From Pseudoalteromonas sp. NC201 (lineage in GTDB: Bacteria; Pseudomonadota; Gammaproteobacteria; Enterobacterales; Alteromonadaceae), in assembly GCF_002850255.1 (NCBI RefSeq), contig NZ_CP022523.1, forward strand, positions 62,001-126,000: 64,000 nucleotides of DNA, read 5' to 3'. Under the pieces are notes generated by a model. That model made no database searches, was not told the origin of the DNA, and saw nothing but the letters and a program-made list of their open reading frames with translations. Positions 36,846-50,931 of the stretch are shown in pieces. The position numbers and the translations under genes are program-made. Numbering within the stretch: the first letter of the stretch is position 1; every line of letters starts with the position of its first letter.

Positions 36846-37164
36846 CCATTGGGTGGTTGATATTTATACAGCAAGGTTTATACCAAATTCCGCTTTGATT
36901 GCTACTGCGGCGTTTCTTTTTTTAGTACGGGCTTTGCAATTTGTTCAGCAGTAGACTTCTTGCCATTTAGCCTTCAAATAGGGCAATCTAACGTACCTAA
37001 GCGGCAATGAATTGCCCATGAAGCTGTACGTGTTATTTAAGAAAATGAAATATTTCCGTGTTCAGTGGCTATTGATATCAATTCATCGGCTGATTGTTGA
37101 AAATATTTATTTGGAATAATGCTTGCAAAGATCCCTCACCGAGATTGTTTTTTAGACTTGCCCA
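36846..37164. other. Intergenic stretch with no recognised gene
   Basis: About 320 bases between two divergent hypothetical genes. I see no convincing ORF, tRNA or strong terminator. A weak imperfect inverted repeat around GGCAAT/ATTGCC (about 36982-37018) is present but has no clear role. Confidence 0.5.
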
Positions 37165-37863
37165 ATGCCAACGTTTTTAACTGGACATCAAGTAGCGCTC
37201 ATAGAGCCTACTTCACTGAACTTTTCACCTGTAGAGCGAGAGAAATTAGTGATCCCGAGCGCTCATAATCAGCTTACAGCAAATGGCAATCACCTTGCTG
37301 CTGGTGGGGGGCGTGCTCACACCTTTAAACAAAACTTTATGAATGCCATGAGTAGTGGCTCGTCTAGCGAAACGTCGCAACATGACAAAAGTGAAGCGTT
37401 ACTGCAGTTCCAATTTGCAGATCACGAAGTTCTATTCGACCTTACAAGCATCGCCTCTCATGATGAGGCTGCTTACGAAAAGCTCCGAGCGTTGTTGGCT
37501 GATATAATGACAGGGCCTGTAAAGGTTGATATCAGTAGTAAAGATCAAGCGCAGCAATTACTGTTTAAAAATTTAGAGCTAGATTTCTTAGCGTACAAGG
37601 AGCTCTCTGAGCGGCTGGAAATGTTGGCAAAGCTTGACCATGAAACTGAAAGTCAAAAAGCATTGGCACAGCAAGATAAAGATCGCATTCGTGCGGTAAT
37701 TGCAAGTTTACATGCACGCCTCGAGAAGGGCCAAGAGGCGTTACTTGGTGGAACAACATTAAAAGCGTTGGATGTAAATCGCAAAGATTTTGAGCTTGAA
37801 TTAGATAGCCTATTTACCACTATTGGCTTTGATTCGGAAATGCCAGTAACCGGCGCGACTTGA
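37165..37863 (+). CDS. Hypothetical protein with coiled-coil region
   Basis: A 232-residue soluble protein. Residues about 60-140 appear mixed alpha/beta (LLQFQFADHEVLFDLTSI), and about 145-205 form a charged helical stretch likely to be a coiled coil (LSERLEMLAKLDHETESQKA onward). No clear ribosome site precedes the ATG, so the start is uncertain. It lies just outside the integron, next to the integrase gene end. Family not recognised. Confidence 0.55.
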   Translation: MPTFLTGHQVALIEPTSLNFSPVEREKLVIPSAHNQLTANGNHLAAGGGRAHTFKQNFMNAMSSGSSSETSQHDKSEALLQFQFADHEVLFDLTSIASHDEAAYEKLRALLADIMTGPVKVDISSKDQAQQLLFKNLELDFLAYKELSERLEMLAKLDHETESQKALAQQDKDRIRAVIASLHARLEKGQEALLGGTTLKALDVNRKDFELELDSLFTTIGFDSEMPVTGAT

Positions 37864-38067
37864 TTGCCGTGATCATTATTGTTTGCTGGAATTTGTACTT
37901 TTTACCAGGTATAAAATGTAGCAGCCCATACCCGAACCTCACCGTTTAAAAAGAACGGGGCTAGACTTTACCTGACATACGTTTTGAGCGAACAAAAGAC
38001 GGTCGTTAACGTTACTTTTGTTCCACAAAGCGCACGTTCCACTAACTCATGTATGCCCCAAAACGAG

Positions 38068-39027
38068 CTAGAAAATTTTGCTCAAAGGGCTAACAACACC
38101 GTTTGCGCCTTGCTGTAAAACATGGGTATAAATCTGAGTGGTTTTAACGTCTGAATGGCCTAACTGAGCTTGTACTGTTCTAATATCTGCCCCACTTTGT
38201 AACAGGTGTGTAGCAAAAGAGTGGGGCGTTATAGGTTTTGTTATTTGTGCTTTTTTGGCTGCGTCTTTAACCGCTTTACGTACTCCTGTTTGATGAAAAT
38301 GATGTCGGCGGATCTCCCCAGTTTCAGGATCTGCACTTAACTTATATGAGGGAAATAGATACTGCCAAGCAATTGACTTATTGGCGCTAGGATATTTTCT
38401 TGCTAGTGCGTTTGGCATCCAAACACCTGCATATCGTTCATTCTGGGAATCTAATTTTAAGTATTCATCAGCCTGAGCAATTTGATTTCTTAGCAAAGGT
38501 ATAAGTTCTGTGGCGAGAGTAACCACCCGATGTTTATTCCCTTTTCCATTCCAGATCCGAATGTACTTGTAGTCAAAGTCAATGTCCTGAACTCGTAGTT
38601 GAACAGCTTCCATTACACGTAAGCCGCTACCATACATTAAGCCTGAAATTAAATAATATCGTTTATTTAAAAACGATATGAGACGTTTAACCCCCTCGGG
38701 GGTCATAACAATTGGCAACTTAGATTGGCGCTTGCTTCTGATAAACGTTAGATTGGGGCACAAATCCTGTTTAATTATTTGCTTATACAGAAAAGATAAT
38801 GCATTTAACGCTGTCGCTTGTGTTTTAGGCGACACATTACGTTTAAGCACAAGGTAGTTGAGATATTCGACAACCTCGTTATCGCCCATTGAAGCTGGGT
38901 GACGCTTATCATGAAAATGAATATAGGAAGAAATCCACTTAAGATATGTATCAACTGTTCTGAGCGAATATTGCTTAGTCAGCATAAACTCTGCGATGTG
39001 GTTTAGAAATGGTGAACGAGTTCTCAT
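38068..39027 (-). CDS. intI: Integron integrase IntI, catalytic arginine box deleted
   Basis: A 319-residue tyrosine recombinase of the IntI group. It has the first catalytic arginine (Arg137, GSGLRVMEA), the beta-hairpin lysine region (GKGNKHR), the IntI-specific extra helix (ALARKYPSANKSIAWQYLFPS), the second His (GHSDV, His291) and Tyr300 in TTQIYTHV. The canonical box PHTLRHSFATH instead reads PHSFATH here, so four residues, including the H-x-x-R arginine, are absent at residue 269 (nt 38221-38223). The frame is otherwise intact. The protein probably folds but should not cut DNA normally. A LexA box lies upstream and cassettes lie on the opposite side, as in known chromosomal integrons. 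Confidence 0.9.
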   Translation of the reverse strand: MRTRSPFLNHIAEFMLTKQYSLRTVDTYLKWISSYIHFHDKRHPASMGDNEVVEYLNYLVLKRNVSPKTQATALNALSFLYKQIIKQDLCPNLTFIRSKRQSKLPIVMTPEGVKRLISFLNKRYYLISGLMYGSGLRVMEAVQLRVQDIDFDYKYIRIWNGKGNKHRVVTLATELIPLLRNQIAQADEYLKLDSQNERYAGVWMPNALARKYPSANKSIAWQYLFPSYKLSADPETGEIRRHHFHQTGVRKAVKDAAKKAQITKPITPHSFATHLLQSGADIRTVQAQLGHSDVKTTQIYTHVLQQGANGVVSPLSKIF

Positions 39028-39048
39028 TGAATTAGCTCTAAAAAGAAA

Positions 39049-39064
39049 CTGTATTTATATACAG
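39049..39064 (-). promoter_or_regulatory. LexA/SOS box upstream of intI
   Basis: CTGTATTTATATACAG is a perfect CTG-N10-CAG site of the gammaproteobacterial LexA type, 22 bases before the intI start. SOS control of intI is established for integrons such as that of Vibrio cholerae. Confidence 0.85.
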
Positions 39065-39090
39065 TGTTGGCGTATTTCTCCTATAGTCAA

Positions 39091-39115
39091 GAAAACGACC
39101 CACTGGGTCGTTTTC
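39091..39115. repeat. 25-bp palindrome in the attI region, copy 1
   Basis: A perfect inverted repeat with 12-bp arms and a 1-base centre. The core is CGACCCA-c-TGGGTCG. It lies between the intI start and the first cassette. Confidence 0.8.
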
Positions 39116-39215
39116 ATCCTTTTCATAATGATGAAAAATATATCTGTAGCAACAAGTTAGTTATTGTGATAAAACTGGTACAATGAGAATAATGACCCAT
39201 GACTCGGTAGATAAA

Positions 39216-39230
39216 CGACCCATTGGGTCG
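39216..39230. repeat. 15-bp palindrome in the attI region, copy 2
   Basis: CGACCCATTGGGTCG repeats the core of the palindrome at 39091-39115, only 10 bases before the attI crossover. A degenerate relative is at about 39193-39207 (tGACCCAtGACTCGg). Confidence 0.8.
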
Positions 39231-39240
39231 ATATTAAATT

Positions 39241-39247
39241 GTTATAC
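39241..39247 (+). other. attI: attI core site (G/TTATAC)
   Basis: GTTATAC fits the integron core GTTRRRY. The bases just after it (TTATACGCAT) are complementary to the start of the first attC (ATGCGTATAAC), as expected when a cassette is inserted here. Flanking IntI-binding repeats were not resolved. Confidence 0.75.
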
Positions 39248-39273
39248 GCATTCGAATATTCAAGTGATGGATT

Positions 39274-40371
39274 ATGATTGAACTAGAAAAAACAAGTGAT
39301 AATTGGGAAGACTGGAATGTACTATTTAAAGGGAAAAAGTATAACCTAGCCGAATATGGGTCTAAATGGAGTGACAAGTCCTATCAATTTCCCGCGAATC
39401 GAGATTTAAAACTAACCATCACAGACTTTTCAGATTATAACTTTAGTGATTTTCATCCTGAGCTTTATTTTGGTATTGATAACGAACATGGAATCTTAGG
39501 AAAACAAATTTCAACTATCTATTTATGTACTAGCTCAGATGAAGACTCGAAGTACTTTGGCTATTGCTGGGATATTAAGCTTGATGATTGGGATGGACAT
39601 TTCAACCCTTTTATTATTAGAAATGAAGTTGCCAAAGCAATAGAGGCTCAAACAGAATTTCCAATTAGTGGCAAGTTAGGTTTATCTGATGACTCTGGTT
39701 TCGCATCAATTTATTTTGATGTAGATGTCAATGAAGTAGAGTGCTTCAAAGATTTTTACTTAAAACTAGCGAGCTTTTTGGATAGAACTTTTGAAGAAGT
39801 AGAAGAAAAGTTATCGATAGGTGGCTTTTCAAATAAAGTAGTGGCTAAATTCTCTTTTGATGAAGAGGTACAACAATCCTGTATTAGTTACCTAAATTAC
39901 TTTATCGAATTTTTGAAAGATCTAGGCATTAAATCTAAACCTCAAGTCAATTACTCAGGGCAAGATATTCTATTTTCGATAACTCCTGATTCAAAGGAAG
40001 AGTCTTTAGCTCTAGTATCTCAAGCGCTGTCTTTGTATTTGAAATTACCACAAATTGACACTGCAGAGTTAATAAATGAGTATTCAGACCCTCTTACTGA
40101 ACTTAAGCTAGAAAGACTAAAAAGCGAAATTGATAAACTTAAAGGAGATCTGCGAACAAGTGCGGCGCTAATTCGTTATCAAGATAAACTTCTTTCAAAT
40201 GGCACTGTAAAGTTAAAGGAGCCAATAGAGGCTTTACAATGTATTCATATTGATGATGAGGAAAAAAATAAAAGAGAATTTCTGAGTGGTGGAATTAAAC
40301 TTGGCGTATTTAAAAAGGCTGGTATTGAGTTTGACTGGAATGCTCTGCTAGGTCATTTCAAATCAAAATAA
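39274..40371 (+). CDS. Cassette 1 protein of unknown function
   Basis: A 365-residue soluble acidic protein in the first integron cassette. The N-terminal 120 residues are rich in aromatic and Asp residues (WDIKLDDWDGHFNPF). Residues about 275-310 (LTELKLERLKSEIDKLKGDL) form a probable coiled coil. No membrane segments. Being next to attI, it should be best expressed by any Pc promoter. Family not recognised; defence or stress roles are common for cassette genes but there is no direct evidence here. Confidence 0.75.
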   Translation: MIELEKTSDNWEDWNVLFKGKKYNLAEYGSKWSDKSYQFPANRDLKLTITDFSDYNFSDFHPELYFGIDNEHGILGKQISTIYLCTSSDEDSKYFGYCWDIKLDDWDGHFNPFIIRNEVAKAIEAQTEFPISGKLGLSDDSGFASIYFDVDVNEVECFKDFYLKLASFLDRTFEEVEEKLSIGGFSNKVVAKFSFDEEVQQSCISYLNYFIEFLKDLGIKSKPQVNYSGQDILFSITPDSKEESLALVSQALSLYLKLPQIDTAELINEYSDPLTELKLERLKSEIDKLKGDLRTSAALIRYQDKLLSNGTVKLKEPIEALQCIHIDDEEKNKREFLSGGIKLGVFKKAGIEFDWNALLGHFKSK

Positions 40372-40374
40372 TGC

Positions 40375-40480
40375 GTATAACAAGGCAATAAACACGCCCG
40401 CAAGCGGGCTGGGACAGCAACACGGTGGCGGCTTCGATATTCTCGCCACCGTGTTACTGCCCGTTATTGCGAAGTTATGT
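40375..40480 (+). other. attC: attC site of cassette 1
   Basis: It begins GTATAAC-AA-GGCAATAA and ends CGTTATTGC-GAA-GTTATGT, with a long internal inverted repeat (AACACGGTGGCG against CGCCACCGTGTT). This is the standard attC layout. Confidence 0.88.
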
Positions 40481-40506
40481 AACTATGTCGAAGTTTGGAG
40501 AGTATT

Positions 40507-41358
40507 TTGAGTTCCAAAGTATGCAAATTTTGTGAGAAGTCTCCTGCTATAGATAATTCGCATTTAATTCCTAGCTTTATCTATAAATGGATTAAAGATA
40601 CATCGCCTACTGGTTATATGAGGGCGACTAATGAACCAAACAAAAGGCAACAGGATGGGTATAAATCTGCATTGTTATGTGAAAGCTGCGAAGAAAAATT
40701 TTCAAAGTCGGAAGATCTATTTAAAAAAGAGTTATTTAATAAAATAGCAAATTATAGAAAACCTTGTCCTGAAAAATTATCTATCACAAACAATATTAGA
40801 ACTTGTTTATATATTATCGCTTGGAGAGTGTTGGCTGATGCATATCACTTTCCTAAAGAAAATGACTACACTGATGATGAAATTAATGAGTTTCCTAATT
40901 TTATAGCTGATATGAAATCAGCTATAAACTCAGGTACTACAGACAAGTTTAAAACTCATATCATACCGTGTACTAAAGATGTACTTACCCAGTTAGGGCT
41001 GCCAAAAGTAGATTGGTATTTTTATGATCGTATGACTGGAGCAGAGCCAAGAATATGGGACAATTGGGAACGGTTTATCATATTTATAAAAATACCGTCT
41101 GCAATTGTTGCTTTTGAAGTAGTACCTAATGACAATGATGACTGGTCTGGAACTCAGATTGATAAAGTCGAAAGCATATCGCTGTCTAAAATAAAGTCTA
41201 TACCTTCGTATATTTCAGATTTAGTTTCATTTTTTCATCGAGCTTTTGTTGCCAGTAAAGGTGAAGTTACTGAGTTACAACAAGAAAAAATGAAAAATGA
41301 TATTTTAGCGGGTGATTTAGAATGCGGAGCTATAAAGTCATTAAATAAAACGTGGTAG
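40507..41358 (+). CDS. Cassette 2 protein with Cys4/His treble-clef-like N-terminus
   Basis: A protein of about 283 residues. The N-terminus has CKFCEK, then SHLIPSF and later LLCESCEEKF. This CxxC...H...CxxC spacing suggests a zinc-binding treble-clef or HNH-like unit, although an HNH catalytic Asn/His pair is not certain. The remainder is helical with FYDRMTG and an FFHRAF stretch near the end. Start: GGAG (40497-40500) is six bases before TTG 40507; an upstream TTG at 40495 overlaps that site. It forms the only gene of its cassette. Confidence 0.7.
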   Translation: MSSKVCKFCEKSPAIDNSHLIPSFIYKWIKDTSPTGYMRATNEPNKRQQDGYKSALLCESCEEKFSKSEDLFKKELFNKIANYRKPCPEKLSITNNIRTCLYIIAWRVLADAYHFPKENDYTDDEINEFPNFIADMKSAINSGTTDKFKTHIIPCTKDVLTQLGLPKVDWYFYDRMTGAEPRIWDNWERFIIFIKIPSAIVAFEVVPNDNDDWSGTQIDKVESISLSKIKSIPSYISDLVSFFHRAFVASKGEVTELQQEKMKNDILAGDLECGAIKSLNKTW

Positions 41359-41363
41359 CCGTT

Positions 41364-41464
41364 ACATAACAAAGCAATCAGCGAAGGACGTAAAACGCTT
41401 GGCTTGCGCTCCTTCGCCGCTAATTATAGCCGAGCATTTTACGCCTGTTATTGCGGCGTTATGC
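41364..41464 (+). other. attC: attC site of cassette 2
   Basis: It begins ACATAAC-AA-AGCAAT and ends GTTATTGC-GGC-GTTATGC, with internal arms GCGAAGGA / TCCTTCGC. The cassette start TTATGTAAC is complementary to GTTACATAA at its end. Confidence 0.85.
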
Positions 41465-41479
41465 CTAGGAGATGAAATC

Positions 41480-41836
41480 ATGAATATGAAGGAGTTTTCA
41501 AGTTTGGTTGGCTTGTCGTCACACACTCTTCGATATTATGAAAAAATAGGCTTACTCAAGAATATCCAACGAAATAGAAGTGGGCACCGAGTATATACTT
41601 CGAAAGATTTGGGGTGGATTGAATTTGTGAAGCGCCTAAAAGAAACGGCGATGCCTCTCGAAGAAATCCTGGAGTATGCGCGGCTAAGGGAGTCAGGAGT
41701 AGATACTGTATTACAGCGTCAGGTGTTGCTAGAGCAACACAGAAAAAATTTGATAGCTCATATCGAGCAACAACAGTCACACCTTATTGCTTTGGAAGAA
41801 AAAATTAAACTTTATAATAATGGAAAAGTTCGTTGA
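41480..41836 (+). CDS. MerR-family transcriptional regulator (cassette 3)
   Basis: A 118-residue regulator with the MerR N-terminal DNA-binding signature MKEFSSLVGLSSHTLRYYEK, a recognition wing containing HRVYTSKDL, and a C-terminal dimerisation coiled coil (residues about 80-115). No cysteine cluster for metal binding, so it is of the organic-compound or MerR-like BltR/SoxR-unrelated type. ATG 41480 is preceded by AGGAGA; the frame is open through the attC upstream but this is not coding. It is paired with a carboxymuconolactone-decarboxylase-like gene 58 bases downstream, a common regulator-target pair. Confidence 0.85.
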   Translation: MNMKEFSSLVGLSSHTLRYYEKIGLLKNIQRNRSGHRVYTSKDLGWIEFVKRLKETAMPLEEILEYARLRESGVDTVLQRQVLLEQHRKNLIAHIEQQQSHLIALEEKIKLYNNGKVR

Positions 41837-41894
41837 CTTAGAGTGAACTCTAACTTGTATGGTGTGCTTGTACTTACGAAATAGGAGCATACCA

Positions 41895-42272
41895 ATGGAC
41901 AAATCACGTTTTGATACCGGTCTTGAATTATTAACAAGCATTGATGGCGAAGCCGGAAAAAATGTTATCGAAAGTTTGCAAGATATCTGCCCTGATTTAG
42001 CCAGATATACAATAGAGTTTCCTTTCGGGGATATATATGCACGCACAGGGTTGGATGTAAAATCGCGAGAAATCGCAACGGTTGCCGCATTAACAGCGCT
42101 AGGGAATTGTGAGCCTCAGCTTAAAGTTCATTTAAATGCCGCTCTTAACGTTGGTTGTAGTGAAGATGAGCTCAAAGAGGTCATATTACAAATGTCAGTT
42201 TATGCAGGTTTTCCTGCCGCTTTAAATGGTATGTTTGCTTTTAAAGAAGTGATCACCGAGCGAAAGGCATAA
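41895..42272 (+). CDS. Carboxymuconolactone decarboxylase/AhpD-like protein (cassette 3)
   Basis: A 125-residue all-helical protein of the carboxymuconolactone decarboxylase family. It shows the core DVKSREIATVAALTALGNCE and HLNAALNVGCSEDELKEVI. The CxxC of AhpD is not present; a single Cys precedes the conserved Glu-rich helix. Family members decarboxylate lactones or act in peroxide defence. AGGAG (41883-41887) supports ATG 41895. It shares cassette 3 with the MerR gene, so MerR may control it. Confidence 0.82.
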   Translation: MDKSRFDTGLELLTSIDGEAGKNVIESLQDICPDLARYTIEFPFGDIYARTGLDVKSREIATVAALTALGNCEPQLKVHLNAALNVGCSEDELKEVILQMSVYAGFPAALNGMFAFKEVITERKA

Positions 42273-42303
42273 CAAACTGTTTAAGAGTGATTCGCAACGC
42301 GGG
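42267..42303 (+). other. attC: attC site of cassette 3, left half only
   Basis: It begins GCATAAC-AA-ACTGTTTAAG and continues into GTGATTCGCAACGCG, then changes abruptly into CAAAATAAGC-type short repeats. The matching right half (ending GTTATGC) is missing. Confidence 0.75.
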
Positions 42304-42326
42304 AGCAAAATAAGCCGCAACAAAAT

Positions 42327-42736
42327 AAGCAACAAAATAAGCGACACCCATCACTATTAACATCAAAGCTGAGGAAGTGAAGTAAAAAAGCATGTAAACA
42401 CTCCAATAATTTTGGTCAAAAACGTTCCTAGATAAGTTGATTTTTAGCACTCAATCGTATTTCTACACTAAAACTGGGTTATCGCGCACGACAAAGCGCT
42501 GTAAATACAACAGTAAGAAATTCTAGAGTTGAAGCAACAAAATAAGCGACACCCATCACTATTAACATCAAAGCTGAGGAAGTGAAGTAAAAAAGCATGT
42601 AAACACTCCAATAATTTTGGTCAAAAACGTTCCTAGATAAGTTGATTTTTAGCACTCAATCGTATTTCTACACTAAAACTGGGTTATCGCGCACGACAAA
42701 GCGCTGTAAATACAACAGTAAGAAATTCTAGAGTTG
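42327..42736. repeat. Tandem duplication, two 205-bp copies
   Basis: The segment starting AAGCAACAAAATAAGCGAC (42327) is repeated from 42532 with a constant 205-base offset up to GAGTTG (42531/42736), apparently without differences. It fills the non-coding gap between the broken attC and the end of the Y1 transposase gene. A shorter CAAAATAAGC repeat occurs three times at the left edge (42305-42342). Confidence 0.9.
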
Positions 42737-42751
42737 AGAATGTGAGCTTTG

Positions 42752-43723
42752 CTAAGCCAACAAACGCTCGCAGTTTGTTAGATTTGTCCGCCGTCGTTTT
42801 TGCAGTGTTTCACAGTAAGCGGTTATTGTTCGTTCTCGACCAACTGCACCGTGAAATACCCGAGAAAATTTCGTAGTGAGTTTTATCCAGTTTTCAGGTT
42901 CTATATTGAGTCGAGTAAGAATCGGTTGTGCTTCATTGATATACCCGCGTTTATCGACTCGAATACATTGGCCCGTGAGCTCAACTAATTCAATATAGGA
43001 CTTGAGTTCAAAAGGTAGGCCTTTAGGCATATGTTTTCGCGGGCTGCCAGCAAAACGTAGTAGGCTTTTTGGTTGTTTGCCCAGCTTAGCGTGGTCGATG
43101 CGCTTTTTGATGCTGGTGTAGTCTGAGGTTTCAGGCGTTGCGGCGATTTTGGCTCTAATGGGGTTTAGGTCTACGTAGGCTAGACAAGCAGCCAATGCCG
43201 CCTCATCCAGTAATGCTTGGGATTTAAATCGTCCTTCCCAAAAACGGCCTGTACAATTATCTTCTTTATTTGCTCGGCGGGCGATGTTTTCGTTAAGTAC
43301 GCGCATAAACCAGCTAATATCTGCGAGCCTTTCCCTGTACTTGGCGACATGCTCATTGAGTATCAATCGCTCCGACTCATTGAGTGGCTCACCTTCAGTA
43401 AATTTTTGGCTTACCCAATTACCTTTAAACAACTTGTGCCATCGAATAACAATCGCTTCATCAGACAGGCGCTTAGCCTTTTTATCATCAACATATAAAA
43501 CAATGTGGGTGTGATTACTCATCACGGCATAAGCACAGACATCAATACAAAACACAGACCTCAACATCAGGAGCTTTTCTTCAACCCAATCACGGCGGTG
43601 CTCGTATGATTTTCCAGTAAATTTATCTTCACCGCACAGAAAGGCGCGCCTTACGCAGCGGGAGATACAGTGATAATATTTGGTGTCGGTTAAACTAATT
43701 TGTTTTTTACGGGCAGTTGCCAT
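42752..43723 (-). CDS. Y1 (HUH) transposase, REP-associated/IS200-like
   Basis: A 323-residue transposase of the Y1_Tnp/REP-associated type. It begins ISLTDTKYYHCISRCVRRAF; the HUH motif is seen in AVMSNHTHIVLYV, and a catalytic Tyr candidate lies in WFMRVLNENIARRANK/CTGRFWEGRFKSQ context (exact Tyr not assigned). LAYVDLNPIRAKIA is a family hallmark. Such proteins nick single-stranded DNA at hairpins. The gene is complete and read toward the integrase. Terminal hairpins were not identified. A fragment of a close relative lies at 49664-49764. Confidence 0.85.
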   Translation of the reverse strand: MATARKKQISLTDTKYYHCISRCVRRAFLCGEDKFTGKSYEHRRDWVEEKLLMLRSVFCIDVCAYAVMSNHTHIVLYVDDKKAKRLSDEAIVIRWHKLFKGNWVSQKFTEGEPLNESERLILNEHVAKYRERLADISWFMRVLNENIARRANKEDNCTGRFWEGRFKSQALLDEAALAACLAYVDLNPIRAKIAATPETSDYTSIKKRIDHAKLGKQPKSLLRFAGSPRKHMPKGLPFELKSYIELVELTGQCIRVDKRGYINEAQPILTRLNIEPENWIKLTTKFSRVFHGAVGRERTITAYCETLQKRRRTNLTNCERLLA

Positions 43724-43877
43724 AGTTTGGTTTCCTCAATCCTTTGAGTGCAGAATTTAAGCTTAGGCGAATTTTAGGAAGGTGCAAATTAGTGGTGGGT
43801 GATGAGATGGACGCTCCCAAATCGGCGTCAATGCGCCAAACTGATAGTTGCAAACACAGTTATTAGGAGAGTCCATC

Positions 43878-44909
43878 ATGAATAACGTTAGCACGCTTTC
43901 AATTGATCTAGCAAAAAATGTATTCCAACTTTTATCGTTTGATAAGCAAGGTAATAAATGTTTTTCCAGAAGGTTAGATAGAGCAAAGCTCTTGCAAACA
44001 TTGACCCAATTACCTGCTTGTAATGTTGTTATGGAATCATGCTCAACGTCTCATTATTGGGGGCGGTACTGCTTACAAGCTGGGCACCAAGTTCAGCTTA
44101 TCCCTGCGCAACATGTTACCCCTTTTGTCCGTGGCAATAAAAACGATAAAAATGATTGTATGGCGATTTATGAAGCGAGCCTTCGACCTAACATTCGCTT
44201 TGTTCCTGTAAAAACAGAGCATCAACAAGCAATCCTAGCACTACATCGCTATCGGGAACGGCTCATACATAATCGAACCGCCTGCATCAACCAAACATGT
44301 GGTTTGTTACTTGAATTTGGCATCGTCATCAAGAAGAGCTTAAAGTCTTTTCGTGCAACCATTGCTGATCTGCTCAACCGTAATTTACATGGAGCTTTAA
44401 ATCTACTCCTCAGAGACGTTTATGAAGAAATGCAAAAGTTAGACGCCAATATTAAAAATGTAGAGGCACAATTTAAGCAGTTTAATGAACAGAGCCAAGC
44501 TGCTCAAATTATCCAATCCATCCCCGGAATTGGGATTATCAACGCATCGGCATTGAGTGCCACAATAGATAAAGGGCAAGCATTTTCTAATAAAAAGGAG
44601 TTGGCTGTGTGGCTTGGGATCACACCACGTCAATATGCTTCGGGTGAAACCAATAAGATGGGAGGGATCACCAAACGAGGTGATCGTTATCTAAGAAAAC
44701 AACTCATTCATGGTGCCCGTACAGTGGTCAATCATGCGCACAAAAAGCAGGATGATTTAAACAAATGGATCAACGCATTGGTAGAACGTCGCGGTAAAAA
44801 TAAAGCGGTGGTGGCCACGGCCCACCGATTGGCTCGCTTAATGTGGATATTGCTACAAAGAAATGAACCTTATAAAGCCCAATATACACAAAGTGAGGCG
44901 CAATCATGA
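43878..44909 (+). CDS. IS110-family (IS1111-like) transposase
   Basis: A 343-residue DEDD recombinase. The N-terminal RuvC-like domain starts STLSIDLAKNVFQLLSFD and has KNDKNDCMAIYEA. The C-terminal domain contains SIPGIGIINASALSATI, WLGITPRQYASGETNKMGGI and TKRGDRYLRKQLIHGARTVV, the pattern of the IS1111 group. AGGAGA supports ATG 43878. IS1111-group elements are known to enter attC sites. Element boundaries are not certain, probably about 43.8 to 45.0 kb. The 3' flank carries a structured segment that may encode the guide (bridge) RNA. Confidence 0.88.
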   Translation: MNNVSTLSIDLAKNVFQLLSFDKQGNKCFSRRLDRAKLLQTLTQLPACNVVMESCSTSHYWGRYCLQAGHQVQLIPAQHVTPFVRGNKNDKNDCMAIYEASLRPNIRFVPVKTEHQQAILALHRYRERLIHNRTACINQTCGLLLEFGIVIKKSLKSFRATIADLLNRNLHGALNLLLRDVYEEMQKLDANIKNVEAQFKQFNEQSQAAQIIQSIPGIGIINASALSATIDKGQAFSNKKELAVWLGITPRQYASGETNKMGGITKRGDRYLRKQLIHGARTVVNHAHKKQDDLNKWINALVERRGKNKAVVATAHRLARLMWILLQRNEPYKAQYTQSEAQS

Positions 44910-44916
44910 CTCAAAT

Positions 44917-44991
44917 TATGGCTATCAAGGAGTCCGGTCGTGACAAGGGCCTCGAGCCCGAGTGGGTGTTTATGAGCCCTTGATAGCCATA
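44917..44991 (+). ncRNA. Structured 3' end of the IS110 element, bridge-RNA candidate
   Basis: Eight bases after the transposase stop, TATGGCTATCAAGG (44917-44930) pairs perfectly with 44978-44991. Inside is GGGC-CTCGA-GCCC. IS110-group recombinases use a bridge RNA from a non-coding end, and I recall it lies 3' in the IS1111 group. Full RNA extent (perhaps to 45.1 kb) unknown. Confidence 0.45.
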
Positions 44992-45291
44992 TTCTCATTG
45001 CTGTAAACATAACGATGAACAAAAGGTCAAACCTACCTAGTTAAACCCGTTATAGGCAAGGCATTCAATGCCGCGTGGGTGTATTCTACTTTTTGGGTGG
45101 CTAGGTTCGAAACTCATTAGGGGCGCTGAAAGTCAGTTAAGCCCGAATATATGTCAGAGCAGCACCTTATTTAGGGTGACTCAAAGTGACTGTTTATCAA
45201 TACATACAAATAGTAAATGAGAGATAAATAAAAGAAGCAACAAGGCTGTTAACACAACCTTGTTGGATGAGTATTACTTGACAGCAGCTGA

Positions 45292-46713
45292 GCGTCCATA
45301 TATGTCAGCGATTTATTACGTAACAATGATAAATCGGGCGCTGCGGCGTATCCGCCCACGGTGATGTTAAAGATAATTTTACTTGGTTATGCTCATGGAT
45401 TAATTAGTAGCCGCCGAATAGCCAAGGCTTGTGAGAACAATATTCTGTTCATGAGTGTGTCAGGGGATCTTCAGCCGCATTACACATCAATAGCAAGTTT
45501 CGTGGCCAAAATGCACGAGCAGATTGAACCGCTATTTACGCAAGTGCTGATGATATGTGATGAAGAAGGCTTGATAGGACGCAACATGTTTGCCATTGAT
45601 GGGTGCAAATTGAAGTCGAATGCGAGCAAGGAGTGGAGCGGTACATTCGATGAGCTAGGCCGTAAAAAAGCCAAATTAGAACGCGCAAGCAAACGCATAA
45701 TTGAGCGCCATCAAGCGCAAGATGGCTTAAGTGAAGAGCTGGTCACTCAAGACTTAAAGCAAAAAGAAAAGCTAGATAAAAGTGCAGATAAAATCACCGC
45801 GTTCTTAGCTACTCACGAAGAGAAAACAGGCAGTAAAGGTAAGCCGGTTAAAAGTAATATTACCGACCCAGACAGCGCGAAAATGACCACGTCAAAAGGC
45901 ACAATTCAAGGCTATAACGGGATAGCGATAAACGATGATAAACATCAAATTATACTACAAGCACAGGCATGGGGCTCGGTGGGCGAGCAACAAACACTGC
46001 AGCCAGCCGTTGAGCAATTAAAACGACAACTTGAAAAACTGAACAGTGATAAATTCTCTAACAAACAGGCCATTAAATTTACCGCAGACAGTGGATTTAA
46101 TAGTGAAGCGAACCTTGAATTCATGGCGCAAAGTGGCTTTGATACTTACATAGCTGATAACCAATTTAGAAAACGCAACCCACTGTTTAAAGAGAGCGAA
46201 ACCTACGAAACAGAGCAAGAAAAGCGCCGATTAAAACGCAGTAAAGGCAAGCCACGCTTATTTACCTCAGACGACTTCCATTATGATGAAGCAACACAAA
46301 CCTGCCGCTGCCCCGCAGGGAACGAGATGTGGCGAAGCGGTATCAATGTAAAAAGCTACAACCAAGAATACACGCGATTCTGCGGTTACTTAAAAGATTG
46401 CAAAGTATGTCCACTACAACAGCAGTGCATGCGAAAGCCACCGATAAAAACAGGCCGACAAGTACAGTTTAAAAATGATGAATCACGTAAAAAACTCAGC
46501 TATATCGACAAAATGAAGGTTAAAATAGACAGCCCAATGGGGCGACGGCATTACAGCAAACGACTCGGCTGTATAGAGCCCGTGTTCGGCAATATTACGG
46601 TAAACAAAGGAATGAATAAACTGACTTTACGGGGTCAAACGAAAGTGAATGCTCAGTGGCAGCTGTATTGCCTTGTTCATAACATAGAAAAGCTGCAAAA
46701 CACGATGCACTAA
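45292..46713 (+). pseudogene. IS1182-type transposase, 5'-truncated
   Basis: The homologous frame is readable from just after TGA 45289 (SDLLRNNDKSGAAAYPPTVMLK) through GYAHGLISSRRIAKACENN to the C-terminal RLGCIEPVFGNITVNKGM. The DDE core includes FAIDGCKLKSNASKEWSG and FTADSGFNSEANLEF; a zinc-like CRCPAGNEMW...CKVCPLQQQCM segment is present. IS1182-group proteins normally have some 60 more N-terminal residues, which are not found in the 170 bases upstream in any frame I checked. The longest start is GTG 45361 (450 aa). It is probably inactive. Upstream bases 44992-45291 hold no other gene I can recognise. Confidence 0.75.
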
Positions 46714-46885
46714 TTAGAGTAAGCCCTTATCACCTCAAATAAGCCAATCAAACACCTGCAATACCTTCCAAAAAGCCAATTAAAGCAACAGCAAACCCTC
46801 TTTTTATATTTTACGTAAAATCGAAGTAACTAATTGAATCAAAATGGGAACTCGGCTATGGTTAATGCATCAATAAAAATAAATT

Positions 46886-46915
46886 AAAACGAGTTATTCT
46901 ACAGGCTCGTTAGAG
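46886..46915 (+). other. attC: Right half of an attC before cassette 4
   Basis: CGAGTTATTC-TACAGGCTC-GTTAGAG ends in a core site GTTAGAG. The cassette that follows starts TTAGAGGTC and ends GACCTCTAA, so this is a true cassette border whose left half was lost when the mobile elements entered. Confidence 0.65.
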
Positions 46916-46920
46916 GTCTC

Positions 46921-47772
46921 ATGAAATCAATCGTTTACCATACTTTAACAATGCTTGAAGATGTTGGGATGTCTATCAATTACCCTGATATCCGACATGT
47001 TACATTTGATGATGAAGGAGGGAGCACTCTTCATTGCTATGCTAGTTGTATGATGGGTACAAGAGTAAGCATTGAGCAAAACCAACCAATGAAGTTTATA
47101 ATGATATTTACATTATTAGACTATTTCATTGATGCAACTTACCCTGAGCTAGAAGGAAAAAGTTTTTCTCAAAAATATAAAGCGATCCCTGAAAGTAATG
47201 ACTATCAATTGATGCTCAGAGAGCTTTTTAGGATAGCAAAATTAATCAGAAATTCCCTTGTTCATAATCCATCATCATTTACTATAAAAAATGATAAACT
47301 TGATGTTAACTATAGCTTTAGAGGAACCAAATTTTGTTTGGTAATGTCTTTCTCTGCATTAAATGATTTCTATACAGCTATTGTTATGTATGTTAAAGGG
47401 GATTTAGGTGAAGGGGCATACTTTCATGGAATCATGAGATCTATATATAGCAATATGATTAGCGGTGTTGATTATATATCTGATGAGTTTTCCAAAGAGA
47501 TAAATAAACCTTCTGATGAGTTGAAGATTATGCCCTATGTTAGGGATATTCTGATCAACCCTACTCACTCTATTAGAGACAATAAAATAAAATTTGAAAT
47601 CGATCGTAAGCACCCAGAATGGCAGGGGTTCGATGTTTATTTGAAGAAAGAAAATAATGAATACCTAGTCCCTATGGAAGCTTTAAACATTGATAAAGAA
47701 ATAGACGAATCAGATCTTTTTAAAAACTGGAGTTATGTTGGGCCTTTTCCTCAAATAAGAAAAGACCTCTAA
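46921..47772 (+). CDS. Cassette 4 protein, HEPN-like motif
   Basis: A 283-residue helical protein. The segment LIRNSLVHNPSSF contains R-N-x3-H (Rx4H), the active-site pattern of HEPN RNases found in toxin-antitoxin and abortive-infection systems. The surrounding helices FRIAKLIRN and FCLVMSFSALNDFY fit a HEPN fold. The C-terminal third (KHPEWQGFDVYLKK) is different and beta-rich. The cassette holds only this gene, so no separate antitoxin is apparent. An HEPN role is an inference from one motif. Confidence 0.7.
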   Translation: MKSIVYHTLTMLEDVGMSINYPDIRHVTFDDEGGSTLHCYASCMMGTRVSIEQNQPMKFIMIFTLLDYFIDATYPELEGKSFSQKYKAIPESNDYQLMLRELFRIAKLIRNSLVHNPSSFTIKNDKLDVNYSFRGTKFCLVMSFSALNDFYTAIVMYVKGDLGEGAYFHGIMRSIYSNMISGVDYISDEFSKEINKPSDELKIMPYVRDILINPTHSIRDNKIKFEIDRKHPEWQGFDVYLKKENNEYLVPMEALNIDKEIDESDLFKNWSYVGPFPQIRKDL

Positions 47773-47821
47773 CAAGAAAATCCAGGTGACGCCTACGGCG
47801 CACCTGATTTAGGCGTTATGC
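47767..47821 (+). other. attC: attC site of cassette 4 (short)
   Basis: CTCTAAC-AA ... GGCGTTATGC, about 55 bp, with internal arms CAGGTG-AC-GCCTACGGCG-CACCTG. This is the minimal attC size. Confidence 0.85.
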
Positions 47822-47851
47822 CTTTCTGTAGTTTTGCAAGGATATTGAAAT

Positions 47852-48940
47852 ATGGAACACTTAAAATTTGATTTAGATAAAGTTCCAGAGTTAACTTTTA
47901 AACATCAGAATAATTATGAATCTAACATACCAAATACGTTGGATTTAAGAATGTTAGATGAAGTAAGTGCAGGGAACACTTTTTTAAGGTTGGCTTCTAC
48001 ATCTCAAAATCCTTTAGTTACGGTACTTGATGAGAAGCCAAGTGATAATTCATTCTCATTGGTAGGTATAACAACTCTACCTATGTATATTCCGATTATG
48101 GCTTCCAAATTTAGAGATTACAAAAAGGAGTTGATTCCTGATTTAGATCCTAATAATTGGTACATAAAGGCTGATGGCAAATACCTTTTTAAAGACTCTA
48201 GGGTTATAGGGGTCGGACAGAAAAAAGATGATGCAATTGCTCGATGGGTACTTTTTTCAAGCTTTTTAGATCATTTTCGTAAGTATTACTGTTTACATAT
48301 TTCATACCTTAAAAAAGATGATCCAAGCTTTCAAAAAATAAAACGAAAAAAAGTTATACCTAAATATTATGAAAGTACATTTCGTGGTATCAAAGAGTCT
48401 TTACAACTATTTGGCGGTATTCCATCAGATATCATTTTTGATAATCTAGATTCAAATTGCTTTAGAAAAATTCAAAATGACAAATATAATGATTCATTTA
48501 TAAATAGCATTCAGCGGCTACCGAAAGATGATTTTAAGTCAGATATGGCTCAAATAATGCAATTTGTTGATATGCTTACATACATTTGTTCAAGGTTTCT
48601 ATTTCCCCCAAACTCGTTGGCCGTATTGTTGGATTTTGAAAAATACTCAATAGGGTTTTCTTCTGATTTATACATGCGTTATAAAGGTTATAGTCCATCA
48701 AAAACTGATGTGTGCGCTCATATGGTACTATCAAATATTCTTCATCAATTAAGGTTTTCAATTTTAGATCGCTTTATGCTTAATGATGGGAACATTTATG
48801 GATCTGTTAAAAAATATTGTAACGAAGAATATACTGACCTTTCAGGTAAAGTAGTTAACTCTATGATTTCTTTTTCTAATTTAAATGTAAGAAATTTAAA
48901 TAGCTTAAAGTCAGTTTTTTTTGAAAGCGACTTTAATTAA
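47852..48940 (+). CDS. Cassette 5 protein of unknown function
   Basis: A 362-residue soluble protein rich in Lys, Asp, Tyr and Phe. It has no signal peptide or membrane helix and no motif I recognise. The C-terminal half is helical (MAQIMQFVDMLTYICSRFLF, HMVLSNILHQLRFSILDRF). AGGAT lies upstream of ATG 47852. AT-rich compared with the chromosome around it, in keeping with a captured cassette gene. Confidence 0.72.
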   Translation: MEHLKFDLDKVPELTFKHQNNYESNIPNTLDLRMLDEVSAGNTFLRLASTSQNPLVTVLDEKPSDNSFSLVGITTLPMYIPIMASKFRDYKKELIPDLDPNNWYIKADGKYLFKDSRVIGVGQKKDDAIARWVLFSSFLDHFRKYYCLHISYLKKDDPSFQKIKRKKVIPKYYESTFRGIKESLQLFGGIPSDIIFDNLDSNCFRKIQNDKYNDSFINSIQRLPKDDFKSDMAQIMQFVDMLTYICSRFLFPPNSLAVLLDFEKYSIGFSSDLYMRYKGYSPSKTDVCAHMVLSNILHQLRFSILDRFMLNDGNIYGSVKKYCNEEYTDLSGKVVNSMISFSNLNVRNLNSLKSVFFESDFN

Positions 48941-48951
48941 GGTGCTAGAAG

Positions 48952-49049
48952 GCATAACAAACAAATCAACAAGGACTAAAAAAGTTTGGCTCCGCTCATG
49001 CCTCGCTATTTTAGCCAGAATTTTTTAGCCTGTTATTCGGGCGTTAAGT
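48952..49049 (+). other. attC: attC site of cassette 5
   Basis: GCATAAC-AA-ACAAATCAA... ends TGTTATTCGG-GC-GTTAAGT, with internal arms GACTAAAAAAGTTTGGC / GCCAGAATTTTTTAGCC region. The cassette begins TTATGCC and its end is GGCATAA, complementary as required. Confidence 0.82.
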
Positions 49050-49064
49050 TGTAAAGGAGTTCAG

Positions 49065-49646
49065 TTGGAAAATCCCATTGGTGAAAAAGTATTAGAATTA
49101 TTAGATGGCACTACTTTCCAAGGCTCAATCAGAGAAAACTTTGCATTAATGAATCACTACGTGGTGTTTGATACACAAAGGGCAATTTATGATTTGGTTG
49201 ATCTAGGTCATATCGGCTCAGCTAAAGCATTGTTAAGAGTGATCTTCGAAGCGAATGTTAAAGCAACATGGATATATCAGTGTGCCAGTGAAAAACAACT
49301 TGAACAGCTCCAAAAAGACGCTGTCAAATCCACGGTAAATAAGAAGCGAAATATTCAATTTGGTGAGATGGTTGATGATGTCGAGAAAATGAATCCTAAC
49401 CTGAAAGGTAAGCTAAAACAGTTTAAAGAAGAACACTGGAAAGGGTTAAATAGTTTAACTCATACGGGTGTTATGCAACTTAAAAGGTACTCATTAGCTT
49501 TTGAACAAAGTGGCTTAGAGACGGAAATTGAAACTATATTAGACTTTTCAAATCGAATGAGTATTAGTTCACTTGGTGATGTAGGGAAAATCACTAAGAA
49601 TAAAGCAGCAATGCAAGTAAGTATTGATCTAATTAGTGCGCTGTAA
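49065..49646 (+). CDS. Cassette 6 protein, DUF5677-like
   Basis: A 193-residue helical protein. NHYVVFDTQRAIYDLVDLGH and GSAKALLRVIFEANVKATWI followed by GLNSLTHTGVMQLKRY resemble DUF5677/DUF6988-type proteins, which are related to HEPN folds and are common in integron cassettes. Function is unknown. Start TTG 49065 has AAAGGAG six bases upstream. It is the last cassette; its attC is missing, and the expected AACTTAAC is not found after the stop. Confidence 0.65.
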   Translation: MENPIGEKVLELLDGTTFQGSIRENFALMNHYVVFDTQRAIYDLVDLGHIGSAKALLRVIFEANVKATWIYQCASEKQLEQLQKDAVKSTVNKKRNIQFGEMVDDVEKMNPNLKGKLKQFKEEHWKGLNSLTHTGVMQLKRYSLAFEQSGLETEIETILDFSNRMSISSLGDVGKITKNKAAMQVSIDLISAL

Positions 49647-49663
49647 CTCGCTCTCGGCCATTC

Positions 49664-49764
49664 TTCAATGAATTTCTAAGTTATCCAGTTGCTTTTGAAC
49701 AGCTTGTGCCAGCGTATCACAATGGCTTTATCAGATATGCGCTTAGCCTTTTTATCATCAACAT
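49664..49764 (-). pseudogene. Fragment of a Y1 (HUH) transposase gene
   Basis: Read on the minus strand, 49664-49764 encodes HVDDKKAKRISDKAIVIRWH and a short continuation with an internal stop, nearly the same as residues about 79-110 of the complete Y1 transposase at 42752-43723. Both ends are missing. It stands where the attC of cassette 6 should be and marks the distal end of the integron. Confidence 0.8.
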
Positions 49765-49896
49765 GCAAAAACAAACTTGATAGATAAACAGGCTCTTGTG
49801 CTAAATAGCCTAAAGCTAAGTAAATTTTACGCAAATTATACGGCAACGAAATTTCGACAAGGATAGAATAAAGACATAGCGCAAGTTGGAGTTACT

Positions 49897-50931
49897 ATGT
49901 TTTCCGAGAATGGATTTATTGCCAAGAATGAGTATCTCGTTAGTTTTCTGGTTTTGCTGTTAACCAGCGCCTTTGCCGTTGCTTTAGACTCGCTGTTACA
50001 TTCGGCGATCAGTGTACTGCTGGTATTACAGTTGGGCGTTGTTGTTGTTTCTCTCATCGCAAAACGTTGGATGGCACTGGGAGTGGCGATTGTTAGCAGT
50101 CTAGTGTTCAACTTTTTTATCACAGAACCCAGATACACGCTTCATATGAATAACACCGAAGACGTGGTCAATTTAGTGGTATTTATCGCGGTGGCATTAG
50201 CTACCAGCTATTTATCGAGCTATATCAAAGAGCAAAAGCAGCAGCTTTTAGTTGCGAATGTGCGCTCCAATATCTTGTTGTCGGTTTCTCATGATCTACG
50301 CACACCGCTCGCTGCGGTGATAGGAGCGCTCGAAACGCTAGAAACCTATCGTGATAAGTTAGACCAAGACGAGCAAAATGAGCTGTTGGGGTCGGCACGA
50401 TCAGAAAGCCACCGTTTGTTTCGCTATATCGAAAATATCTTGCAAGCCACCAAGTTACAGCATCAAGGGGATGAGCTTTCGCTTTTGAAGCAACCTACGT
50501 CTATTGATGTCTTGATCGATAACGTGATTTTACGGCTAGGCGCGCCATGCGTCTCGAGAATGCCACAGAATATGAGTCCAATTCTCACGATACAAGCTGC
50601 ACTCATTGAACAAGCCCTGTTTAACTTAATTGAAAATGCAGTCACCTTTAGTCCCGATGGAGAGCGGGTTGAGATTTCCTTTGGAGAAACGCAGCAAGCG
50701 TTGTTGATATTTATTCAGGATAACGGCCCTGGGATCCCCGTTGCTCGGCAAAAAGAAGTCTTTACCGCCTTTAGCTCATTTCGACAAAGCGCCAGTAAAG
50801 ACGGTGGCAGTGGTTTAGGGCTGAGTGTGGCGAGAGGTATTATTCGTGCACATGGCGGAGATATTCGCATTTTACCGACGACGCAAGGCTGCACAATGGA
50901 AGTTAGTTTGCCAAAAGAGGAGGCGCATTGA
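49897..50931 (+). CDS. KdpD-like sensor histidine kinase, short form
   Basis: A 344-residue inner-membrane histidine kinase. Four N-terminal helices (about 13-110) form a DUF4118-type domain as in KdpD, followed by the H-box SHDLRTPLAA with His132, an N-box FNLIENAVTFS and a G-box DGGSGLGLSVARGI. The large N-terminal KdpD sensor/USP domains of the usual 890-residue protein are absent. It senses potassium or turgor stress in the family. It overlaps the response-regulator gene and precedes Ktr-type transporter genes rather than kdpFABC. Confidence 0.85.
   Translation: MFSENGFIAKNEYLVSFLVLLLTSAFAVALDSLLHSAISVLLVLQLGVVVVSLIAKRWMALGVAIVSSLVFNFFITEPRYTLHMNNTEDVVNLVVFIAVALATSYLSSYIKEQKQQLLVANVRSNILLSVSHDLRTPLAAVIGALETLETYRDKLDQDEQNELLGSARSESHRLFRYIENILQATKLQHQGDELSLLKQPTSIDVLIDNVILRLGAPCVSRMPQNMSPILTIQAALIEQALFNLIENAVTFSPDGERVEISFGETQQALLIFIQDNGPGIPVARQKEVFTAFSSFRQSASKDGGSGLGLSVARGIIRAHGGDIRILPTTQGCTMEVSLPKEEAH

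Follow-up and report, generated by a model that had tools for sequence, protein, structure and literature searches.

The integron integrase gene of Pseudoalteromonas sp. NC201 described here would appear, with a probability that we put at roughly 0.85, to be a recently inactivated integrase on a secondary replicon, a young pseudogene whose cassette array is frozen unless an integrase is supplied. The stretch of DNA that was analyzed, 64,000 nucleotides in length and referred to as the window, lies on C2, a contig of 1,244,003 bases that is the second of the two in this Pseudoalteromonas genome. The features on which the argument rests are given below in window coordinates.

38068..39027, minus strand: intI, without four residues of box II (H-x-x-R); from the frame, TIGR02249 and sister alignments
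38221..38224, minus strand: junction of the 12-bp deletion; from comparison with sister DNA
39049..39064, unstranded: putative LexA-type operator, CTGT-N8-ACAG, upstream of intI; from the pattern and sister loci
39065..39247, unstranded: attI region, with a core-like GTTATAC at 39241-39247; sister homology ends at 39244-39246 in most cases
39242..40474, plus strand: cassette 1, with a 365-aa ORF (39274-40371) and attC1 (40375-40482); R'' end matches its own start
40475..41458, plus strand: cassette 2, with a 287-aa ORF and attC2 (41364-41466); R'' end matches its own start
41459..42301, plus strand: cassette 3, with a MerR-family regulator and a carboxymuconolactone decarboxylase-family protein; from family matches
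48952..49051, plus strand: further attC-like site, 68 bits, beyond insertion sequences; from the attC model

The frame at 38068-39027 is open, codes on the minus strand for a full-length protein of 319 residues and corresponds to intI, the integron integrase gene. A family profile search returns 438.8 bits over positions 1-314 of 315 of TIGR02249, the curated IntI model, whose cut-off is 265. An extra segment between the boxes is the feature that separates IntI from Xer, and the region in question, residues 203-251, aligns gap-free with close IntI relatives and with 2A3V. Among solved structures 2A3V is the nearest in sequence (E 4.2e-113, nearly the whole length aligned) and also the top fold match of the predicted structure (TM 0.73); it is an integron integrase of the Vibrio cholerae type, named IntI4 in its PDB entry, and differs from the window protein in that the latter is missing the H-x-x-R of box II. 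Among the best 120 of 7996 matches in the protein search the nearest named relatives are P. piscicida and P. maricaloris, and box-bearing IntI proteins of the Pseudoalteromonas piscicida group (for example CP074588, L121) are ∼96-98% identical to that of the window. Judged by its sequence, the window gene is IntI by descent with an incomplete catalytic set, so that it is not a complete IntI enzyme.

The original prediction was of a full-length integron integrase in which PHTLRHSFATH had become PHSFATH. The full-length frame and the loss of four residues both stand, with the correction that the nearest sister integrases, 323 residues long, read PHTFRHSFATH. In an alignment that took in 20 of the 120 proteins listed, only these four residues are missing relative to the nearest sisters, either H-T-F-R or T-F-R-H, the placement being ambiguous by one residue. 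Of these 120 proteins, the best among 7996 matches, 119 have a T[FL]R[HY] box, the sole exception being the window protein. A comparison of genome contigs, in which 80 loci were kept out of 487 related stretches found, gives a similar picture: intI is full length and stop-free with the box at 70 loci; a stop is combined with the box in 6 full-length genes and in 1 partial gene; 1 further partial gene has a stop and a match that does not cover the box region, and 2 partial genes are stop-free with boxes present. There is no full-length, stop-free, boxless intI among the 80 loci, and set against them the window alone has an in-frame loss restricted to box II.

In the DNA, the deletion junction is at 38221-38224, where the coding-strand CCAC that is found twice in the two nearest sisters occurs once. 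These sisters, L121 (P. piscicida 2515) and L092, represent the same locus as the window and carry 12 extra bases there, bounded by CCAC twice, which is the layout that slippage requires; in the other six clade members compared CCAC is found once or is absent. Relative to its two nearest sisters the window intI is thus seen to carry a 12-bp in-frame deletion. A deletion of this size had been expected at CAC repeats, the repeat being in fact CCAC, and the alignments with related IntI proteins and sister strains that had been proposed as a check show the four residues, or the 12 bases, to be present in the relatives.

The remaining catalytic residues, R137, K162, H291 and Y300, are all present, as the original prediction held, and do not vary across an alignment of 77 rows whose members include relatives at 41-44% identity and two Xer-like proteins. 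The loss of a catalytic arginine is likewise borne out, since the box-II arginine is gone under any alignment, from a column that is near invariant in the 77 aligned relatives including the two Xer-like proteins. One of the two HxxRH histidines is left in either possible alignment, so that the window protein lacks the box-II arginine and one histidine of the complete set R-K-H-R-H-Y. Loss of the box-II arginine in studied tyrosine recombinases abolishes or strongly reduces strand exchange, and it is because of this chemistry that loss of activity and freezing of the array are predicted here. An AlphaFold model based on 20 close sequences is poor (pLDDT 45.7), and one based on 77 rows reaches a pLDDT of 83.2 with a confident N-terminal part; pLDDT falls under 50 at residues 294-306 of the 77-row model, a stretch that is not informative without an intact control.

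In order to gauge constraint we have counted private codon changes, nonsynonymous (N) and synonymous (S), among 11 aligned intI genes, the window and ten sisters.

Window: 5 N, 0 S
L121: 1 N, 0 S
L092: 3 N (one a stop), 0 S
L093: 2 N, 10 S
L094: 4 N, 9 S
L095: 2 N, 6 S
L096: 12 N, 25 S
L097: 6 N, 5 S
L098: 11 N, 10 S
L012 (outgroup): 45 N, 75 S
L017 (outgroup): 45 N, 85 S

The window counts (5 N, 0 S) depart from those of the six farther clade sisters when pooled (37 N, 65 S; Fisher p 0.008) and from L093-L095 pooled (8 N, 25 S; p 0.0026), the chance of five changes out of five being nonsynonymous amounting to ∼0.2 under neutrality and ∼0.001 under an omega of 0.1. Once 14 close proteins are compared, E112G and M117I turn out to be common to other strains, leaving three private changes, for which the comparison with the six sisters (3 N, 0 S vs 37 N, 65 S) gives p 0.053. 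Direct pairwise comparisons with L121 and L050 place intI beside its neighbors.

Window vs L121: intI 7 N, 2 S; LysE 2 N, 8 S; orf206 1 N, 10 S; orf232 21 N, 17 S
Window vs L050: intI 9 N, 3 S; LysE 3 N, 14 S; orf206 7 N, 20 S; orf232 11 N, 12 S

With L121 as partner intI differs from LysE and orf206 together (3 N, 18 S) with p 0.0017, which becomes 0.069 on addition of the fast-changing orf232; with L050 the corresponding values are 0.0014 (against 10 N, 34 S) and 0.008 (orf232 included, 21 N, 46 S). Nonsynonymous excess is often found in young changes anyway, and the substitution counts are suggestive of lost constraint on the window intI, not proof of it. L121 and L092 show the same nonsynonymous skew, and the intI of L092, very probably from the same strain as L050 (HM-SA03), has a stop at residue 46; relaxation of constraint on intI may therefore have begun before the deletion.

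The surroundings of the gene are those of an integron platform, with a divergent intI, attI and attC-bounded cassettes, attC1 and attC2 being among the training sites of the attC model. An intact LexA-type box, CTGTATTTATATACAG at 39049-39064, lies between intI and attI, in agreement with the LexA box that had been placed upstream. Chance alone would give 0.81 occurrences of the loose pattern CTGT-N8-ACAG in the window, so that weight rests on the position of the box and on its presence upstream of intI, at a distance of at most 80 bases, in 8 of the 10 sister loci (for L098 and L093 the start pattern was not matched). Homology to L121, L050, L092, L094-L098, L010 and L011 ends at 39244-39246, within the attI core, and that to L009 and L093 ends earlier, at 39110. 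L121 resembles the window in its flanking genes, LexA-type box and attI and differs from it in having the four residues. Beyond attI other cassettes are read in L121 and L092, and from 39246 on the L121 array has only an attC stretch in common with the window (blastn). Over the intI-attI stretch, 38000-39246, the window differs from L121 or L050 at 1 to 7 positions in each full 200 bases, as if the platform had been recently exchanged between these strains; the pattern of lower divergence in intI-attI than in the flanks is absent in the comparison of the window with L097. Parts of the flanks show up to 19 mismatches per 200 bases against L121 and L050, above the level of the intI-attI stretch.

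The array itself begins with two cassettes of which copies exist in other genomes. The unit of cassette 2 (40474-41463) is found as a 98.9% copy with the same core-to-core ends in another genome of the genus (G047, L154), where it sits among attC-like sites, and cassette 1, joined to attI and the beginning of intI, is found as a 93.8% copy in G104 (L153), in which only two pieces of intI align; these cassettes have therefore moved not long ago. Cassette 3 retains only an apparent 5' half of its attC (42262-42301), matching Vibrio plasmid records at 35/35 to 38/40 bases (95-100%). It is followed by a perfect 205-bp tandem duplication (42327-42736) beside a transposase-like gene, this next gene matching REP-associated tyrosine transposases weakly, at 38.3 bits for a cut-off of 80, and then by IS110-type and DDE transposase genes. 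The attC-like site at 48952-49051 is located beyond these insertion sequences, and the array therefore probably once extended that far. An Rfam search of 37000-50000 gave no match, nor did PADLOC on the ORFs 39274-40371, 40495-41358, 46921-47772 and 47852-48940, and no occurrence of cassette 1 in viral contigs was confirmed. The ORF at 49065-49646, after the last attC-like site of the window, is matched by the PADLOC family PDC-S52, a candidate defence family (E 1.5e-26), and also by DUF6988.

Whether the array is frozen hinges on what other integrases the genome encodes, as the original prediction allowed with its proviso that another integrase might help. A search of the whole assembly did not find a second intact integron integrase, though it did find one frameshifted copy that has the box. 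In this second IntI, at C2:747426-748378, a shift of one base in a T run leaves two overlapping frames, and the C-terminal part scores 290 bits, over the family cut-off. Were its frameshift a base-calling error, this copy would be the one candidate helper. Fragments are found at C1:1731963-1732208 (an N-terminal piece of 86 codons) and at C1:3884291-3885891 (two scraps, starting at 3884291 and 3885754, that flank a transposase-like gene), and C1:1251960-1252403 gives a weak score in the integrase search. No source of rescue by another integrase was found in the assembly, where the remaining IntI-like places are the frameshifted copy or fragments. L007 and L129 contain what are, by inspection, Xer-like recombinases with an H-x-x-R box.

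Sites that an integrase could act upon are more numerous. With a model built from nine sites, two of them (attC1 and attC2) from the window, and a search that scored 150 of 912 first-look candidates, so that counts are lower bounds, the genome has at least 16 attC-like sites with an E value of 1 or less, at least 14 of them below 1e-5. The window accounts for three, four more lie next to the split integrase and five at C1:1963106-1969705, and the other four are isolated, two of these being weak. The second integron (G000 C2:747426-752242, L090 9424-14243) consists of the split integrase followed by four or five attC-like sites, and the five sites at G000 C1:1963106-1969705 are in a row with no IntI match nearby, an attC cluster without an integrase. 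On chromosome 1 (L089 9300-10994) a transposase-like gene is flanked on both sides by integrase scraps that resemble the window integrase at 89-96%, and its unit is 92% alike to that at window 42327-43801, after the half attC of cassette 3; stretches related to these units are also located near the integron in HM-SA03 (L050, L092).

The most serious alternative to an inactivated gene is an error of sequencing or assembly, the gene of the strain being intact. The deleted allele is known from assembly in one genome alone (one member, one contig), and in the same genome the frameshift of the second IntI falls in a T run, where base-calling errors occur. Homopolymer errors, however, look different from the lesion considered here, which spans 12 bases, keeps the frame and is placed at a short repeat, and we consider error an unlikely source of the box loss.

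It is also conceivable that the protein is a dead catalyst with a kept role, SOS-induced and binding attI and attC so as to block or compete with other integrases. The full-length frame, the intact LexA-type box and the confidently modelled N-terminal part are what such a role would call for; yet the private changes are all nonsynonymous, the same gene carries a stop in a sister and no intact competitor integrase was found in the genome, making a kept role highly improbable. Its most specific form, a DNA-binding guard in which the dead SOS-induced integrase occupies attI and folded attC, poisons the tetramers of incoming integrases and so locks the array, merits still less credence. Finally, the window IntI might be an active recombinase even without the box-II arginine, its four other catalytic residues being in place. 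Both the near invariance of the arginine column in the 77 relatives and the loss or strong reduction of strand exchange seen when this residue is lost in studied tyrosine recombinases speak against activity, to which we assign only the slightest chance.

We thus favor a recently inactivated integrase, and the course of events may be pictured as follows. Replication slippage between the CCAC repeats is the most likely cause of the 12-bp in-frame deletion, which removed the box-II arginine and one of the two histidines and left a frame that is still full length and, in layout, SOS-regulated. The protein may partly fold and bind attI and attC; strand exchange should be lost. As no other intact IntI was found in the genome, cassette capture and excision would have stopped at the window array, and the other attC clusters are probably also halted unless an integrase is supplied.

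A large share of the chromosomal-integron intI genes surveyed is reportedly broken, so that broken chromosomal integrases are already known as a kind, of which the window would be one more case. As in those, function appears to be lost in a resident integron, and at 8 of our 80 loci the match contains a stop. The broken intI genes among the 80 loci, however, have stops, frameshifts and truncations, unlike the in-frame loss of box II in the window. What is offered here is a clean, probably young natural allele, with one in-frame lesion at the active site and with operator and attI intact. Together with near-identical box-bearing sister alleles at the same locus, and with a genome that has 14 or more attC-like sites and no intact integron integrase that our search could find, it would provide a natural before-and-after pair for the fate of cassette arrays after loss of the integrase.
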